This document shows, one piece after another, positions 1,122-7,505 of a stretch of DNA of 57,073 nucleotides. Origin of the DNA: Ruminococcus sp. Its GTDB lineage: Bacteria > Bacillota > Clostridia > Oscillospirales > Ruminococcaceae. Made by a program: the position numbers and the translations under genes. A model generated the notes under the pieces. The model was given only the letters and a program-made list of their open reading frames with translations. It searched no databases and was not told the origin of the DNA. Every line of letters begins with the position of its first letter. Position 1 is the stretch's first letter. Where the stretch lies: positions 1 to 57,073 of the forward strand of contig JAAVHJ010000034.1 in assembly GCA_014799805.1 (NCBI GenBank), in the 5' to 3' direction.

Positions 1122-1895
1122 TCAATCACGAAGAAATCCCGTAAGTGAATCTGACGGTGATGCTCCACGGGTCAGAACACGTCCCAAGCCTGATAAATAA
1201 GCTTTACGTCCTGCCTCAACAGCCTGGCGGAAAGCTTCCGCCATAACAGGTAAATCCCCTGCGGTTGCAAGTGCAGTATTTAACATAACTGCCGTTGCCC
1301 CCATTTCCATAACTTCACAAGCCTGTGATGGTCTTCCTATTCCCGCATCTACTATAATTGGCAGGTCGATTTCATCTATAAGAATTTGAATAAAATCTTT
1401 TGTTGCAAGTCCTTTATTTGAACCTATTGGAGCTGCAAGTGGCATTACAGAAACAGCACCTGCATTGACTAAATCTCTTGCTGTATTCAAATCTGGGTAC
1501 ATATATGGCATTACTAAAAATCCCTCTTTGGCAAGAATTTCTGTTGCTTTTACAGTTTCAGCATTATCAGGAAGCAGATATTTTGTATCTCTCATAATCT
1601 CAACTTTTACAAAATTACCACAGCCCAATTCTCTTGCAAGGCGTGCAATTCTTACTGCTTCCTCAGCATTTCTTGCCCCTGAGGTATTTGGCAGGAGTGT
1701 TATATTTTTGGGAATATAGTCAAGTATATTTTCATGTTCCGCAGTATTTGCACGGCGTACAGCAAGCGTAATCATTTCAGCTCCAGCATATTTTACGACT
1801 GCTTCAATCAGTTTCAGGGAATATTTTCCTGAACCAAGAATAAAACGTGAATGAAATTCATGTCCACCTATGATAAATTTATCATTGTTATGCAT
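1122..1895 (-). CDS. thiG: Thiazole synthase ThiG
   Basis: Forms the thiazole phosphate ring from 1-deoxy-D-xylulose 5-phosphate, dehydroglycine (from ThiH) and sulfur carried as ThiS thiocarboxylate. The 257-residue length is normal for this TIM-barrel family. Lys97 in FVKVEI matches the Schiff-base lysine, and the phosphate-binding glycine stretches ([20 protein letters not shown]) are present near residues 185-210. The end is the usual [18 protein letters not shown]. It sits between thiF (12 bp upstream) and thiH (9 bp downstream), all in one direction, so it is almost certainly co-transcribed. Cytosolic, acting with ThiH and ThiS. No oddity was seen. Confidence 0.97.
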
Positions 1896-1907
1896 TTAAA
1901 ATCCTCC

Positions 1908-2543
1908 TCATGCTTCATATTTTCCTGCAATTATTCTCAATATTGTATGTGCCTGATGTCCCGCACAAACCATTACTCTTGAAGAAAAAAGTCCCATTCC
2001 GTCAGCTATATCACTGTATTCATCTCCACACAGATAAAATTTTTCTGTTATTTTTCTTGTCTGTATCATATTTGCAGAATCAATTCCAGCCATTCCTGAA
2101 CCTGATACAAGATATTTGTCTGGCATATTTTCAAGCACACAATTCACAAACATTGCCTTTGTTTCAGCATTGTCAAAAGCTTCGCATATAATATCTTCGT
2201 GTTTCAACAGTTCAGGTATATTTATTTCATTAAGTTTCACACAATCAGCAGTAATTTCACAATAGGGTGCAATATGTGAAAGTGTTTCTTTTAAAGCGTC
2301 TGTCTTATACATTCCAAGTTGTTCTAAAAAATATTGCTGACGGTTGAGATTTGATATATCCACTTTATCAAAATCAATAATATGAATATTTTTAACACCT
2401 GCACGAGCAAGTGATATTGCTATGTTTGAACCAAGTCCACCTATTCCACAAACTGCAACCGAAGCGGAAGAAACTTTTTTCTGAAAAATTTTTCCATGAC
2501 GTTCCGCAAGTGCATTATACATTTCCATTTTTGATGGTATCAT
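1908..2543 (-). CDS. thiF: ThiS adenylyltransferase ThiF (short family-2 type)
   Basis: E1-like enzyme that adenylates the C-terminal glycine of ThiS before sulfur transfer. The 211-residue protein has the nucleotide-binding GIGGLGSN at about 33-40, the DFDKVDISNLNRQ segment that contacts ATP and Mg, and the later FDNAETK. It lacks the CxxC zinc pairs of the longer E. coli ThiF/MoeB, so it belongs to the short thiF_fam2 type common in Clostridia. The Shine-Dalgarno for its ATG lies inside the last glycine codons of thiS, with 5 bp between the genes, which suggests coupled translation. Function is inferred from family and operon; the operon makes ThiF far likelier than a MoeB or HesA role. Confidence 0.92.
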   Translation of the reverse strand: MIPSKMEMYNALAERHGKIFQKKVSSASVAVCGIGGLGSNIAISLARAGVKNIHIIDFDKVDISNLNRQQYFLEQLGMYKTDALKETLSHIAPYCEITADCVKLNEINIPELLKHEDIICEAFDNAETKAMFVNCVLENMPDKYLVSGSGMAGIDSANMIQTRKITEKFYLCGDEYSDIADGMGLFSSRVMVCAGHQAHTILRIIAGKYEA

Positions 2544-2548
2544 AATGA

Positions 2549-2743
2549 TTATCCTCCCCCTACAAAACGTACTATTTCAAGCTTATCATCATCATGAATC
2601 ATAATATTTTTATATTCTGCCTTTGGTGCGATATTTCCATTTAGTTCAACTGCAACACGTTTTTCATCATATCCGAGAATTTCAAGAAGTTCAGCAATTG
2701 TTTTCCTTACAAATTCAAGCTTTTCACCATTTACTGTTATCAT
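2549..2743 (-). CDS. thiS: Sulfur carrier protein ThiS
   Basis: A 64-residue ubiquitin-like (beta-grasp) sulfur carrier. It starts MITVNGEKLEF and ends FVGGG; the terminal Gly-Gly is adenylated by ThiF, converted to thiocarboxylate and used by ThiG. The central VAVELNGNIAP segment is the conserved strand and loop of the family. AAGGAGG sits 6 nt before the ATG, so the start is firm. It is the first gene of the thi operon and follows a TPP riboswitch and an intrinsic terminator, so it is the first gene shut off when thiamine is plentiful. Confidence 0.95.
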   Translation of the reverse strand: MITVNGEKLEFVRKTIAELLEILGYDEKRVAVELNGNIAPKAEYKNIMIHDDDKLEIVRFVGGG

Positions 2744-2780
2744 TTTTTCCTCCTTACAAAATAAATTAATAAATTAAAAT

Positions 2781-2811
2781 CAAAAAGAGAACTGCAATAA
2801 CGCAGTTCTCT
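2781..2811 (-). terminator. Intrinsic terminator of the TPP riboswitch expression platform
   Basis: Perfect 10-bp stem AGAGAACTGC/GCAGTTCTCT (arms 2802-2811 and 2786-2795 on the minus strand) with a 6-nt loop, followed by a U-run read from 2786 down to 2782. It lies between the TPP aptamer and thiS. The placement implies that ligand-bound aptamer permits the terminator and stops thi transcription. Confidence 0.93.
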
Positions 2812-2823
2812 AAAAAAATACAA

Positions 2824-2928
2824 GTATATTTCCAGCTCCCTACGTTGGCATTATCCAAATCAGGTTAAAGGGTCAAAAGTTATACTTTCCTCTCAGCCTG
2901 TCTTACAAGCTCCCCTACATATATTTTT
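2824..2928 (-). promoter_or_regulatory. TPP (THI-element) riboswitch
   Basis: On the minus strand the leader holds the conserved THI-element blocks in order: GGGGAGC (about 2918-2911), GGCTGAGAGG (about 2900-2890), GACCC, ACCTGATTTGGATAATGCC (about 2865-2846) and CGTAGGGAGCT (about 2845-2833). The CUGAGA and CUGAUN-GGAUAAUGCCA signatures bind the pyrimidine and pyrophosphate halves of TPP. P1 can be extended by an AU-rich pairing at both ends with one mismatch. It sits between an ideal promoter and a terminator ahead of thiS. Confidence 0.97.
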
Positions 2929-3007: not shown

Positions 3008-3057
3008 TAGTTTTTTTCAATTAATCAGAGCAACAGCATTTACTTTTTAAGATAATT

Positions 3058-3090
3058 AAAAAAAGTCCAGCTTTTCACTGAACTTTTTTT
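3058..3090 (-). terminator. Intrinsic terminator downstream of amt
   Basis: Stem AAAAGTTCAG/CTGGACTTTT (arms 3078-3087 and 3061-3070, one G-U pair), 7-nt loop, and a T-run on the minus strand. It lies 9 bp past the amt stop. The flanking A and T runs make it look usable on both strands, but no plus-strand gene ends here. Confidence 0.9.
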
Positions 3091-3099
3091 AATGAAATA

Positions 3100-4881
3100 T
3101 CAATTTGGAGAGTCTTGCAATGCATCATAACCATGTTCATTGGTTCTGACTTTTACAACATCTTCTACATCATAAATAAATATTTTACCATCACCAATAT
3201 TGCCAGTATATAAAGCTTTTCTGATTGCTGTGAGGGCTTTTTCCACAGGAACAGCGGTAATAACTGCCTCAACTTTTACTTTAGAATGCAAAGATGGTAA
3301 TTCCTGTTTGATACCACGATAATAAGTTGTATGTCCCATTTGCGTCCCGTAGCCTAAGACATGTGTCACTGTAATCCCATGAATGCCAACTTCAGCAAGA
3401 CAGGCTTGTAAATCTTCTAATTTTGCAGGGCGACAAACAATAGAAAGTTTTGTTAATTTTGCACCAGAGTTTCCAGTAGATTGATTAATAACAACTGGAG
3501 CTGGATTATTATTTAATTTCTCAACATCTGAACCGAATACATTTCGCATTTCTTTGCTGTCAACGTCATGGCGTTTTGCCTGACGGCTTACCTGTAACAT
3601 CGTATCTGTCGCTGGTGCAAAATCCGCATAAGAACTAGATAAACCATGTTCTGTTAAATCAAGACCAATAATTTCTTCTTCGGCAGTTGCACGCAATCCC
3701 AGTGTTTTTTTAATAATGAAAAACGTAATAGAAATCGTAATTGCAGTCCATGCACCAACAGCTAAAATTGCAAGAATTTGTAATCCAAGCTGATGAAAAC
3801 CACCACCATAGAATAAGCCTGTTACGGTATCATTATTTGGCACAGAAGTTGTTGCAAATAAGCCAACGGCAAATGTTCCCCAAATACCATTGCACATGTG
3901 AACAGCAACAGCTCCGACAGGGTCATCAATATGCAATACATGGTCTAGCAACCATACACCGAAAATAACTAATAAACCAGACACAATGCCAATACAAGTT
4001 GCACCCAGAGCATCTACAACATCACAACTTGCTGTAACACCTACCAAACCAGCAAGAGAAGCATTCAAGCACATGGAAACATCAGGTTTGCCATATTTTA
4101 TCCAGGTGAAAATCATACATGTAAAAGTCGCAATGGCAGGAGCAATTGTTGTTGCAACAAAAATGCTTGCTAACTGTCCGCCAGATGTTGCAGCAGCTCC
4201 ATTAAAGCCATACCAGCCGAACCATAAAATAAAACAGCCTAATGCACCAATTGTTAAATTATGTCCCTGAATCGCATTAACTTTAATTACTTTTCCGTCT
4301 TTATCTCTCTTAAATTTGCCAATACGTGCACCTTCCATTGCCGCACCAATCAAAGCAGAAATTCCGCCAACCATATGAATGGCACAAGAACCTGCAAAAT
4401 CATGAAATCCTAATTGCGACAACCAACCACCGCCCCAAATCCAGTGGGCTTCAATCGGATAAATAATACCAGAAATAATCGCTGAATAGACACAATAAGA
4501 TAAAAATTTCGTTCTTTCTGCCATTGCACCAGAAACAATAGTCGCAGTAGTTGCACAAAATACTAAATTAAATATAAAATTAGACCAATCAAAATTTTCG
4601 TAATCTGTGAAAATTTTCAGATTTGGCAAGCCAATCAGACCGCCTAGTGCATCTTCGCCCAAAAATAAGCCAAAGCCTATAGCGATAAATACAACTGTAC
4701 CAATACAGAAATCCATTAGATTTTTCATGATAATATTTCCAGCATTTTTTGCCCTTGTGAAACCAGTTTCCACCATGGCAAATCCAGCTTGCATGAAAAA
4801 TACAAATGACGCACCAATTAAAAACCAAATATTAAATATTTGTTCATTTGTGCTGGTTAAGACCTTGTTCAAAATATCCAT
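3100..4881 (-). CDS. amt: Ammonium transporter fused to a C-terminal P-II domain
   Basis: Inner-membrane ammonium channel, 593 residues from the chosen ATG. Residues about 1-405 are an Amt core with many hydrophobic segments and the pore twin histidines in GSCAIHMVGG and GAVAVHMCNG. A polar linker of about 70 residues follows. Residues about 474-593 form a complete P-II (GlnB-like) domain: AKLEDLQACLAEVGIHGITV, a T-loop with GHTTYYRG that keeps the usually modified Tyr, then GDGKIFIYDVEDVVKVRT. Free P-II proteins block Amt by inserting the T-loop, so this is a covalently attached gate (inference). An upstream in-frame ATG at 4947 was rejected because it lies inside the leader terminator hairpin; AAAGGATGG precedes the chosen ATG. 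It has its own promoter and an attenuator leader, and lies downstream of an ANTAR regulator and a glutamine synthetase homologue. Confidence 0.95.
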   Translation of the reverse strand: MDILNKVLTSTNEQIFNIWFLIGASFVFFMQAGFAMVETGFTRAKNAGNIIMKNLMDFCIGTVVFIAIGFGLFLGEDALGGLIGLPNLKIFTDYENFDWSNFIFNLVFCATTATIVSGAMAERTKFLSYCVYSAIISGIIYPIEAHWIWGGGWLSQLGFHDFAGSCAIHMVGGISALIGAAMEGARIGKFKRDKDGKVIKVNAIQGHNLTIGALGCFILWFGWYGFNGAAATSGGQLASIFVATTIAPAIATFTCMIFTWIKYGKPDVSMCLNASLAGLVGVTASCDVVDALGATCIGIVSGLLVIFGVWLLDHVLHIDDPVGAVAVHMCNGIWGTFAVGLFATTSVPNNDTVTGLFYGGGFHQLGLQILAILAVGAWTAITISITFFIIKKTLGLRATAEEEIIGLDLTEHGLSSSYADFAPATDTMLQVSRQAKRHDVDSKEMRNVFGSDVEKLNNNPAPVVINQSTGNSGAKLTKLSIVCRPAKLEDLQACLAEVGIHGITVTHVLGYGTQMGHTTYYRGIKQELPSLHSKVKVEAVITAVPVEKALTAIRKALYTGNIGDGKIFIYDVEDVVKVRTNEHGYDALQDSPN

Positions 4882-4920
4882 GTTTTTCCATCCTTTCAAA
4901 AATAAATCATCTGCCGGCAA

Positions 4921-4968
4921 AACAAAAAAACACGCTGAAACATACAAGATTCTTGCATGCTTCAGCGT
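4921..4968 (-). terminator. Intrinsic terminator inside the amt leader (attenuator)
   Basis: Minus-strand hairpin ACGCTGAA...TTCAGCGT (outer 8 bp), continued through a G-U pair by CATGCAAG/CTTGTATG with one wobble, about 17 bp in all, then seven or more T. It lies after the amt promoter and before the amt Shine-Dalgarno, so it is part of the amt leader as well as a possible end signal for the upstream regulator operon. Transcription of amt must pass it. Confidence 0.9.
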
Positions 4969-4976
4969 CTTTGCTG
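4963..4976 (-). promoter_or_regulatory. Candidate ANTAR-binding hexaloop hairpin overlapping the amt terminator
   Basis: Minus strand CAGC-AAAGAC-GCTG: a 4-bp stem closing a 6-nt loop with A at loop position 1 and G at position 4, the pattern known for RNA targets of ANTAR antiterminators such as EutV. Its 3' arm shares bases 4963-4968 with the 5' arm of the amt terminator, so the two structures exclude each other. The known motif is a tandem pair. I find only this one within the predicted transcript, so the call is tentative. Confidence 0.45.
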
Positions 4977-4988
4977 TTTACAGTTATT

Positions 4989-5017
4989 AGTATATAATAT
5001 TATTTTAAATTTGTCAA
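4989..5017 (-). promoter_or_regulatory. Sigma-A promoter of amt
   Basis: TTGACA (5012-5017) and TATACT (4989-4994) on the minus strand with a 17-bp spacer. The predicted start is near 4982, just a few bases before the hexaloop hairpin and terminator. The AT-rich stretch 5018-5174 between here and the upstream gene shows no further feature I can support beyond an A/T-run palindrome without a U-tract. Confidence 0.85.
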
Positions 5018-5174
5018 TTGGAAGTCATACTGTGAATTTTCATAAAGCCAAAATTTTTTTTGGTTATCCTGCATAATACTCACTGTTTTGCATTTATTTT
5101 AATTTATTTTTTTAAGTCTAAACAATAATTACTTTCAATAAATTTGCAAAATCAGCAAAAAACAAAATAGTTAT

Positions 5175-5543
5175 TTAAAATAATTTTAAAAAATATCTAT
5201 CTGGTGTGCCTTGCAATTGTTCTGTTTCGACAATGGCAAAATTTTTGCCAATAATAATTGCACTCATGCCATTGCTTAACACTAATTTTAATGCCTGTTT
5301 TAAATTACATGTTAATTTATCTAATTCTTGATGATACGCCATAATATAACATTCTGGATTGCCAAGTATTTTTTCAAAATCCTGTGTATCACAAATTTTT
5401 TGCATATCTAATAAATCTTCTGCATGATGGCAGAATCTGCCAAGACAATCCTGGCGTTTTTTAGAATTTTGTAATTCATATAATAATCTGTCCTGTTTGG
5501 AATTAATAATAAAATTTTTGACAAAAAATAATTCATAATTCAT
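5175..5543 (-). CDS. Unknown small protein translationally coupled to the ANTAR regulator
   Basis: 122 residues, no family recognised. It has no signal peptide or membrane segment. The N-terminal half is polar with Cys and His clustered around residues 33-64 (CLGRFCHHAED, CDTQ, ECYIMAYH); the C-terminal half is more hydrophobic (NGMSAIIIGKNFAIVE). Its ATG overlaps the end of the regulator gene by 11 bp in another frame and has no good Shine-Dalgarno at normal spacing, which suggests translation by ribosomes finishing the regulator. The context, between the ANTAR regulator and Amt-P-II, suggests a nitrogen-control partner, but I assign no function. Coding status is supported by the overlap architecture and an uninterrupted frame. 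Confidence 0.7.
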   Translation of the reverse strand: MNYELFFVKNFIINSKQDRLLYELQNSKKRQDCLGRFCHHAEDLLDMQKICDTQDFEKILGNPECYIMAYHQELDKLTCNLKQALKLVLSNGMSAIIIGKNFAIVETEQLQGTPDRYFLKLF

Positions 5544-6108
5544 AAGTCGATAAAATCCTCAAAGCAACTTCTTTTCGGGTAGAGCGTGTATCCATTGCCT
5601 GTTTTTCAATATAGCGATGTGCTTCTGGTTCAGTAAATTTTAAATACTGCATTAAAGCACATTTTGCACGGTTAATTAAACGCATTTCGTCTATTTTTAC
5701 CATTAATTGCGAATTTTCTCGTTTCAATCCCAGCATTCTGGAACGTGTTGCTTGTACAAGCCGAATAGACTGGTGCAAAATATTTCGATTCATGGGTTTT
5801 GAAACAATGCATACACCATAATCGCTGATTTTTTCAGCGACATCATCTGCAATGTCAGCCTTGCATAATAAAATAATGCCTGCACTGGTATTTTCTGCCA
5901 TATGGACAGATAATTCATGTCCAAATTCGTCTTTCAAGGGTGTATTAATAATAATTAATGCATAATCTACACTGTTCATGATACGGCGGGCTTCACTGCC
6001 ACTTGTCGCCGAAGTCAAATTTGTATAACCGTAAGAGTGCAAAAATTGGGCTATGATTTCCATATTCTTTTCAGAACCAGAAACAATCAAAGCTCTGTCC
6101 AAAATCAC
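5533..6108 (-). CDS. ANTAR-domain RNA-binding regulator with a degenerate receiver
   Basis: Predicted transcription antiterminator of the AmiR/NasT/EutV class, 191 residues. Residues about 1-115 have the receiver fold (ALIVSGSEKN, a beta-strand IIINTPLKDEFG, then SKP). The acidic pair after the first strand is replaced by Ser10-Gly11 and the phospho-acceptor position is Asn55, while Lys104-Pro105 is kept, so phosphorylation is unlikely. A coiled segment around 125-145 leads to the ANTAR helices at about 145-188 (INRAKCALMQYLKF...KQAMDTRSTRKEVALRIL), which bind RNA. AAGGAG precedes a GTG start at 6108. It lies 35 bp after the glutamine synthetase homologue. A glnA-ANTAR pair (glnA-nitR) is known from Clostridium. 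The likely target is the amt leader. Confidence 0.92.
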   Translation of the reverse strand: MILDRALIVSGSEKNMEIIAQFLHSYGYTNLTSATSGSEARRIMNSVDYALIIINTPLKDEFGHELSVHMAENTSAGIILLCKADIADDVAEKISDYGVCIVSKPMNRNILHQSIRLVQATRSRMLGLKRENSQLMVKIDEMRLINRAKCALMQYLKFTEPEAHRYIEKQAMDTRSTRKEVALRILSTYEL

Positions 6109-6143
6109 TCAACTCCTTCAAAATAATTCATGATTTTTATTCA

Positions 6144-7433
6144 TTACTCAGATAGAAAATACTGCTGTTCTTCAAATAAAGCCTTATCTTCTGCAACATC
6201 GTATAATGCAAGTTGTTTTTCAATATTTTGATAAAAATTTCTTCTGATTTCTTCTGGCAGATTTTCTTGAATAAATGCACTTGTTTTTGCAATTTCATAA
6301 GCTTTTCTAAGCGTTGCAGGCAATGCTGCAAATTGTTTTTCTTCTGCTGTAACAAGCATATTTTCTGATAATGTTAAATTTTTCTTCATGCCGTCAATCC
6401 CTGCAGATAATAATAATCTAAATGAAATATAGGGATTACAGCAACAATCCGCACTACGAATATCAATTTTTGCCAATCCGTCTGTGAATTTATGCACACG
6501 AATTAAGGGATTACGATTTTCAAAAGACCAATTAATATGATTAGGAGCACCTCTGTGTCTAAGTCTGGTATAAGAATTTACAATCGGATTCAAGAAAACA
6601 GTCATTTCTGGTGCATGTGCCAGAACACCTGCAATAAAACTTGCACCTTCTGGAGAAATCTGATTATTTTTTATTTCAAAAATATTTTTGCCGTTATATT
6701 TTAAGCTTATCACAATTGTTAAAGCACTTCCATAAGTGCCACTTAAAGGCTTAGGCATAAAAGACGCATACAAGCCATTCTGTGAAGCAATTGTTTTCAC
6801 GACATTTTTATAATGCACCATATTATCAGCGGCTGTCACAGGTTCACTGCATTTGAAATCAATTTCATTCTGTCCGTAGCCATATTTATGACAAGAACGC
6901 TGTGGATGCAAGCCCATTTCTTCAAGAGACAAACAAATTTCACGTCTGACATTTTCGCATTTATCTAACGGTGCAACATCAAGATAGCCTGCATGGTCAT
7001 GTGGGATTTTAGTTGGCTTGCCTAATTCATCACAGTCAAATAAATAAAATTCACTTCTTGTGCCAAATTCGCAGGAATAGCCTTTTGTATATAATTCTTG
7101 TATATAACTCTGTAGCGTATAACGTAATTCTCCTGCATAGGGCGAACCGTCTAAATTTTTAATATTACAGAAAAAACGCACAACACGCCCTGATTTTGGT
7201 CGCCAGGGCAACACAGACAAAGTAGAAATATCTGGTATTAATAATAAATCCTGATAACAATCAGAAAATCCTGCTGCATCTAGTAAAATGCCATGTGAAA
7301 AAGCTTTTGGCAATTCATCTGGCATGATAGCAATATTTTTTAAATTTCCCTGCATATCACAAAATGTCAAACGAATAAATTTGACGTCATTTTCTTTTAC
7401 AAAATTTAAAATTTCTTTCGGTGAAAAATTCAT
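6144..7433 (-). CDS. Glutamine synthetase homologue lacking key active-site residues (probable pseudoenzyme)
   Basis: 429 residues that align end to end with GSI-alpha enzymes such as B. subtilis GlnA (NDVKFIRLTFCDMQG, GQNEIDFK, FMPKPL, LNPIVNSYTRL and NPYISF are conserved). Many catalytic residues are changed by my reading: DGSS to DAAG at 52-55 with about 4 residues deleted after it; E-P-E to R-S-E at 126-128 (one metal Glu lost); the Glu of HEVA to Lys183; GSGMH to GSALT at 235-239 (metal His lost); GYEAP to HRGAP with Gly295 in place of the flap Glu; and metal Glu to Asp324. Glutamine synthesis is therefore unlikely and a sensing or scaffold role is inferred. GGAGG precedes the ATG. The gene is followed by the ANTAR regulator and Amt-P-II. 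A real GlnA should exist elsewhere in the genome. Confidence 0.9.
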   Translation of the reverse strand: MNFSPKEILNFVKENDVKFIRLTFCDMQGNLKNIAIMPDELPKAFSHGILLDAAGFSDCYQDLLLIPDISTLSVLPWRPKSGRVVRFFCNIKNLDGSPYAGELRYTLQSYIQELYTKGYSCEFGTRSEFYLFDCDELGKPTKIPHDHAGYLDVAPLDKCENVRREICLSLEEMGLHPQRSCHKYGYGQNEIDFKCSEPVTAADNMVHYKNVVKTIASQNGLYASFMPKPLSGTYGSALTIVISLKYNGKNIFEIKNNQISPEGASFIAGVLAHAPEMTVFLNPIVNSYTRLRHRGAPNHINWSFENRNPLIRVHKFTDGLAKIDIRSADCCCNPYISFRLLLSAGIDGMKKNLTLSENMLVTAEEKQFAALPATLRKAYEIAKTSAFIQENLPEEIRRNFYQNIEKQLALYDVAEDKALFEEQQYFLSE

Positions 7434-7471: not shown

Positions 7472-7505
7472 AAAAATACGGCTCACAGACGGAATTGCGA
7501 GCCGT
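7472..7505 (-). terminator. Intrinsic terminator between flavin reductase and the glutamine synthetase homologue
   Basis: Minus-strand stem ACGGCTCGCA/TGTGAGCCGT (10 bp, one G-U), 8-nt loop, then ATTTTT. It begins about 15 bp after the flavin reductase stop and ends about 38 bp before the next ATG. No consensus promoter is visible in that remaining gap, so the downstream cluster may depend on readthrough. Confidence 0.88.

Follow-up and report, generated by a model that had tools for sequence, protein, structure and literature searches.

The window analysed here is a stretch of 57,073 nucleotides from a Ruminococcus sp. (contig JAAVHJ010000034.1), in which four genes follow one another on the minus strand: those for a glutamine synthetase (GS)-like protein, an ANTAR antiterminator, a small protein and an Amt ammonium channel fused to a P-II domain. 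A reading of the sequence alone had placed these genes here, and open reading frame (ORF) calls and Pfam matches agree with it. We favour, with some reserve, the view that the GS-like protein is a former enzyme that now serves as the ligand-sensing partner of a kinase-independent ANTAR antiterminator. This proposal builds on features read from sequence, namely the loss of metal ligands under purifying selection, the dead receiver of the ANTAR protein, the pairing of the two genes, the architecture of a hairpin (P1) and a terminator in the amt leader, and the way P1 tracks ANTAR genes among genomes.

The GS-like protein appears inactivated and is under purifying selection

The GS-like protein (429 aa; 6144..7433, minus strand) matches the Pfam families PF00120 (258.5 bits) and PF03951 (56 bits), both over cut-off, and fails the equivalog cut-off of TIGR00653, the model of the active type I enzyme (293.5 vs 429.15 bits). 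With B. subtilis GS (4lnf) as the reference for residue positions, four of six metal ligands are changed (E132R, E189K, H245T and E333D), while E134 and E196 are kept. Glu304, described as catalytic and as contacting glutamine in the feedback-inhibited GS (FBI-GS) of Bacilli (PMC9249791; here and below, papers are cited for the portions of their text that we drew on), is replaced by Gly. The arginines R298, R316, R321 and R335 are retained. The sequence-only reading had described a GS homologue without most catalytic residues, which is correct for the metal ligands and Glu304 and does not extend to these arginines.

The replacements are fixed throughout the genus. All 24 genus copies have three or four of the six metal ligands changed, with Lys or Arg at position 132, Lys at 189, never His at 245 and never Glu at 304, and all 24 retain R298 and R335. 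All 19 aligned copies share K183 and Y234 (window numbering), the first at position 189 and the second in place of the Asn once present in the NGSGMH motif. Of 29 comparisons, 13 gave a finite dS, in several cases a high one; among these 13, the ratio of nonsynonymous to synonymous substitution rates (dN/dS) lies between 0.027 and 0.070. Relatives at 68-97% identity occur in records labelled Ruminococcus, Oscillospiraceae, Clostridia and Clostridiales. As judged from these alignments, the GS-like protein of the genus is inactivated yet under purifying selection. Decay into a pseudogene, as the lost catalytic residues could suggest, is ruled out by a dN/dS of 0.03-0.07 and by a frame that is open in 24/24 genus loci (two of them cut by contig ends); we give it practically no weight.

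A second explanation is that the protein is a ligase with a different substrate or a metal-poor chemistry, and that the ANTAR protein controls its operon in the ordinary manner. The GS fold is known to occur in enzymes acting on other substrates, the NCBIfam model for gamma-glutamylputrescine synthetase also matches the protein, far under its cut-off, and the retained arginines are those of the substrate site. However, two metal ligands have turned into Lys or Arg and the catalytic Glu304 is lost. To our knowledge, other GS-fold ligases retain their metal ligands.

Repeated loss of metal ligands in ANTAR-linked GS

Ligand loss is not confined to the genus of the window. Among 88 GS adjacent to ANTAR in the same family, 26 have changed at least one metal ligand and 16 at least two (L052 was left out for gaps; L074, with an overlapping open frame, and L085, at 716 nt, were not scored as adjacent). 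Across the class, 38 distinct ANTAR-linked GS, counted after dropping the repeated loci L240 and L253, include eight with three ligands changed and one with a single change. As controls we used 11 type I GS (GS-I) of the same family encoded away from ANTAR, picked by eye among the GS-I matches not beside an ANTAR match, the partial sequence G128:C9 being left out; all six ligands are intact in 11/11. Glu304 is likewise present in 11/11 controls, vs 41/62 family and 15/29 class GS among those adjacent proteins whose metal ligands are all in place. Further GS may therefore be altered on the ammonium side of their site. At position 304, Lys stands in 17/62 and 10/29 of these metal-intact family and class proteins, respectively.

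On a quick tree of 151 GS rows, from which the catalytic columns had been removed, the loss of at least two ligands amounts to six changes, five of which are forced by strongly supported branches. The proteins concerned form a clade of 15 rows that includes the window and has weak base support (42), a clade of 7 family rows (98 in the Shimodaira-Hasegawa-like approximate likelihood ratio test, SH-aLRT) and a clade of 8 rows, 7 of them distinct, from another family (99); one pair (support 47) and three single rows make up the remainder. In the clade from the other family (loci L222, L223, L231, L233, L234, L235 and L237), the GS have lost E134 and E189 and, in 6/7 distinct rows, E196 as well, whereas E132, H245 and E333 are kept. 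This set is nearly opposite to that of the window, which points to an independent inactivation. That lineages lost different ligands is unlike the emergence of one new activity, and we regard the ligase explanation as improbable.

The conserved neighbour is an ANTAR protein with a dead receiver

The ANTAR antiterminator (191 aa; 5533..6108, minus strand) starts at GTG, with the start in relatives about two codons later, and matches PF03861 with 55.7 bits against a cut-off of 27.3. The positions corresponding to D12, D13, D57, T87 and K109 of CheY read S, G, N, C and K, so that Asn takes the place of the phosphoacceptor Asp on which kinase-driven ANTAR proteins of the EutV type depend. The earlier description of an ANTAR regulator without a phosphorylatable receiver is thus borne out. 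Asn at D57 is the rule among relatives: it is found in 90/101 ANTAR proteins of the family and genus (Asp in 3/101), in 20/29 further family loci and in 41/49 class loci, two of which are repeats. No kinase gene was recognised on reading the ORF lists of the window, with no family search for kinases made. Asn occurs beside intact GS (38/42) and beside GS that have lost at least two ligands (26/27) alike; a means of controlling the ANTAR protein other than a kinase is therefore probably older than the loss of catalysis in GS.

ANTAR relatives are found in 113/148 family genomes, with E 1e-20 or lower in 106 of them, and in 110/291 class genomes at E 1e-10. In the host assembly (88% complete) just one was found. 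We fetched the regions around the 80 best ANTAR matches of the family besides the window, and then 29 further places, most of them chosen as listing both GS and ANTAR; adjacency was hence counted from the ANTAR side. A GS ORF is present in 68 of the 80 regions (69 with the window), and in 21/29 class loci a GS gene is adjacent to the ANTAR gene on the same strand. Pseudo-GS and dead-receiver ANTAR form a conserved gene pair, and the pairing of GS with ANTAR is old.

The same neighbourhoods bear on the idea that the GS-like protein regulates an enzyme and not the ANTAR protein, either by co-assembly with type III GS (GSIII) or as a glutamine buffer. GSIII is present in 136/148 family genomes and is often encoded near the pair; the host assembly has two GS genes, the pseudo-GS and one GSIII. 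The conserved neighbour, however, is the ANTAR gene and not glnN. Co-assembly is also disfavoured by the large differences in size and oligomeric state between GS of types I and III. We consider a role of this kind very improbable.

The amt leader has the architecture of an ANTAR antiterminator

The Amt-P-II fusion (PF00909 and PF00543; 3100..4881, minus strand) comprises 593 aa from an ATG at 4881. This start is likely to be the correct one rather than the listed TTG at 4947, because the leader hairpins occupy 4928-4976 and the TTG would fall inside them. The leader begins with a promoter whose -35 box TTGACA (5012..5017, minus strand) and -10 box TATACT (4989..4994, minus strand) are separated by 17 bases. 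It continues with the hairpin P1, CAGC-AAAGAC-GCTG (4963..4976, minus strand), whose hexaloop carries the A1 and G4 of ANTAR targets and which is the predicted ANTAR site and antiterminator. An intrinsic terminator hairpin followed by a T run occupies 4928..4972 (minus strand), and its 5' arm includes the 3' arm of P1, which makes the two mutually exclusive. The leader folds with -27.6 kcal/mol (z -6.6; as good in 0/200 shuffles), in agreement with the attenuator leader ascribed to the Amt-P-II gene by the sequence-only reading. All nine distinct amt leaders of the genus share TTGACA-17-TATACT, a hairpin CAGC-AA(A)GRY-GCTG and a terminator with a 5' arm beginning inside that hairpin, and seven carry a second A1/G4 hexaloop (P2) inside the terminator. 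By its sequence, the leader is an ANTAR-type antiterminator.

The host genome contains one exact P1 site, at amt. Eight sites have one mismatch, and a leader context is seen by eye at amt only. The exact site is likewise restricted to amt in 3/3 sampled genomes of the genus. Where amt does not adjoin the gene pair, it appears to be reached in trans via the P1 hairpin. A strict scan for two hexaloops plus terminator gave 9 matches in 102 loci, vs 2.0 in Markov shuffles; these were mostly the genus amt leaders, and one match (L133) looked spurious. Many Amt relatives of the family align through the P-II domain. The T-loop of this domain in the window (3550-3600 region) reads GHTTYYRGIKQELP, apparently lacking the tyrosine at which enterobacterial P-II is uridylylated.

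In the family, the P1 pattern CAGCAANGRCGCTG occurs 119 times in 78/148 genomes, and the reversed pattern 7 times, a control that underestimates chance; the 42 genomes without detected ANTAR, with 14 sites, are the better background. The pattern is present in 71/106 genomes with ANTAR vs 7/42 without (p 2e-8, with rows related by descent). Inspecting 30 P1 loci by eye, one per genome, we found 17 to be leader-like, with promoter and terminator, and 13 to resemble chance matches. Sixteen of the leader-like loci could be assigned to a gene, for GSIII (6), AsnA (4), GS (3) or Amt (3). A larger set of 56 leaders was selected by the combined presence of P1, a T run and a -10-like box from the fetched loci, many of which had been retrieved around amt or GS; P1 precedes Amt in 22, GSIII in 16, AsnA in 6, GS in 6 and other genes in 6. 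The last group holds genes for glutamate dehydrogenase, SAICAR synthetase and GatC (by Pfam), a truncated Amt (L117) and two leaders that end too early. The glutamate dehydrogenase, SAICAR synthetase and GatC genes are possible further members of the regulon; their P1-terminator leaders lie at L067 2303-2364, L082 11066-11127 and L105 1973-2034, respectively.

When 42 of the 56 leaders were aligned, the P1 core proved near invariant and the terminator showed two-sided changes in 9 of its 14 pairs. The terminator is thus supported by covariation. In most family leaders no second A1/G4 loop was seen by eye. A leader with a single hexaloop that doubles as antiterminator would be a naturally compact form of the switch.

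Other features of the window

Between the ANTAR gene, whose stop it overlaps, and amt lies the gene for a small protein of 122 aa (5175..5543, minus strand) that has no Pfam or NCBIfam match. It stands beside the GS-ANTAR pair only in the window and in the genus loci L114, L115, L116 and L135. Homologues are found beside other genes, as judged by eye, at L299 1483-1887 and L301 895-1896, and one homologue makes up the C-terminal portion of a longer frame (333 aa) with no Pfam match. The structural model of the small protein is poor (pLDDT 69.7, second-best 54.8) and gave no match in the PDB at E 0.001. The sequence-only reading had listed this protein among the four genes; owing to its patchy occurrence and its homologues at other loci we rejected it as a third component.

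A further hairpin followed by ATTTTTC (7478..7505, minus strand) separates the upstream gene from the GS gene. It folds with -17.3 kcal/mol over a stretch of 61 nt, does not contain the P1 sequence and is either the terminator of the upstream gene or an attenuator of the GS gene. A thiamine pyrophosphate (TPP) riboswitch at 2820-2926 precedes genes resembling thiS, thiF and thiG, which are followed by a thiH-like frame (window 1122-2926, minus strand; gene names assigned by eye). It alone passes in an Rfam scan of the window. An Rfam match to a viral element at 3038-3092 (E-value 0.57) was rejected, the site being the terminator region behind amt.

Discussion

From these observations we infer the contact between GS-like protein and ANTAR, the ligand, the binding of ANTAR to P1 and the polarity of the switch as follows. 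The GS-like protein would bind glutamine, glutamate or a nucleotide in the cavity where two acidic metal ligands became basic; ligand binding is plausible because the GS fold and the substrate arginines are retained. Depending on the ligand, it would hold or release the ANTAR protein by direct contact, as NasS does with NasT and FBI-GS with GlnR. Released ANTAR would bind the A1/G4 hexaloop of P1, the 5'-terminal hairpin of the amt leader, and block the terminator, which uses the 3' arm of P1 as its own 5' arm; the polymerase would then read into amt-P-II. We expect amt to be on at low glutamine. Catalysis would be left to GSIII, and we propose that the presence of GSIII made GS-I catalysis dispensable, so that it was lost several times. 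In genera with an intact GS, one protein could serve as enzyme and reporter together.

Each half of this scheme has precedents. In the FBI-GS/GlnR-TnrA circuit of Bacilli, GS reports the nitrogen state to the regulator through a direct contact made in the active-site cavity (PMC9249791). Both cases have a type I GS in an operon with a regulator; there, as described, the GS is active and its partner a DNA-binding protein of the MerR type, whereas here the GS is, by sequence, catalytically disabled, and the gene beside it encodes an RNA-binding REC-ANTAR protein and no GlnR/TnrA regulator. NasS-NasT and AmiC-AmiR resemble the present pair in that an ANTAR protein with a receiver-like domain is controlled by a ligand-binding protein encoded next to it, not by a kinase (PMC3795266). 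The partners described there are periplasmic-binding-protein-like, whereas the conserved adjacent gene here has a GS fold. NitR of Clostridium saccharobutylicum is an ANTAR protein that induces GS and glutamate synthase (GOGAT) genes by antitermination under nitrogen limitation (PMC6316151, PMC4676874); the cited portions hold no statement of GS as the sensor of NitR or of an inactive GS. Among the papers listed by searches of open-licence PubMed Central (PMC) literature, which does not extend to subscription papers such as Stutz 2007 on NitR, none states that an ANTAR protein has GS as its partner.

Other parts of the scheme are established. ANTAR targets at ammonium transporter, P-II and GS genes have been reported (Ramesh 2012, PMC3369931; PMC8934654), and the A1/G4 hexaloop overlapping a terminator is common to those targets and ours. 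The classic dual element consists of P1 and of P2 within the terminator (Ramesh 2012, PMC3369931), an arrangement that seven of the nine genus amt leaders fit. Most leaders here differ from it in showing a single clear hexaloop, which itself lends its 3' arm to the terminator as the 5' arm. The Amt-P-II fusion is ordinary and nothing new: the same two-domain architecture is seen in Clo1313_2260 of C. thermocellum, with putative AmtB and P-II domains (PMC4676874).

Several observations weigh against a sensory GS acting through P1. Most pairs keep all six metal ligands (62/88 in the family, 29/38 in the class), and catalysis may still be relevant in them. The excess of ligand loss in ANTAR-linked over control GS of the family (one-sided Fisher p 0.028) is indicative, as the control set is small and the rows are related by descent. 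The AlphaFold model of the GS-like protein has low confidence (mean pLDDT 65); its Foldseek matches are GS structures, and we therefore draw no conclusions from it on active-site structure. In the leader of the window and in that of L115, two of the nine, the P2 hexaloop is altered and lacks the A1/G4 signature. A single hexaloop is described as the minimal ANTAR binding motif, with contact to both hexaloops required for antitermination in E. faecalis (PMC8934654). The exact P1 pattern is absent from 35/106 ANTAR genomes and present in the 7/42 without detected ANTAR. The sequence-only reading had proposed testing whether pseudo-GS, dead-receiver ANTAR and Amt-P-II co-occur, and the outcome is mixed. 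GS-ANTAR pairs do recur across the class, but besides the window, Amt lies immediately downstream in only 8 of the 22 genus loci that have an ANTAR ORF (in 11/22 no Amt was found with at least 3.4 kb read, and 3 were left undecided), and this adjacency is limited to part of the genus. The small protein between them is probably a passenger.

Neither is a GS neighbour obligatory. A GS ORF is missing from 12/80 ANTAR regions, two of which (L089 and L101) lie at contig ends, and most of the ANTAR proteins concerned still have dead receivers, so that ANTAR can work without a GS partner. In L071, L104 and L106 the ANTAR gene follows glutamate-synthase-like genes (with GXGXG and Pyr_redox in L104). 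ANTAR could accordingly sense by itself or via another partner, such as the P-II domain of Amt, GSIII or a small molecule, with the GS-like gene a relic of co-regulation. The frequent location of ANTAR genes near GSIII, amt or glutamate-synthase-like genes would fit such a role. A non-catalytic passenger should decay, however; the GS gene is under strong purifying selection with its replacement residues fixed, and an inactive GS remains beside ANTAR in several lineages. We therefore think a relic unlikely and keep to the GS-like protein as the sensory partner.

A wider proposal, for which we see the scales as level, is that across Clostridia a type I GS repeatedly became a dedicated nitrogen sensor that holds or releases a kinase-independent ANTAR protein. 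It would act through a compact single-hexaloop switch on an ammonium-assimilation regulon of amt-P-II, glnN, glnA-ANTAR, asnA and occasionally gdh, gatC and purC. In the genus of the window, the enzyme function would be gone, and the only exact P1 site found in each of the sampled genomes (3/3) is the one at amt.

If true, this would name the nitrogen sensor in a large group of gut Clostridia with glnA beside an ANTAR gene, and unite in one switch two known principles, the reporting of nitrogen by GS and the pairing of ANTAR with a protein that binds a ligand. The P1 motif supplies a ready list of candidate regulon members, and recurrent GS inactivation offers a natural experiment that separates the catalytic from the regulatory role. 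A metabolic enzyme would then have evolved more than once into a pure sensor.

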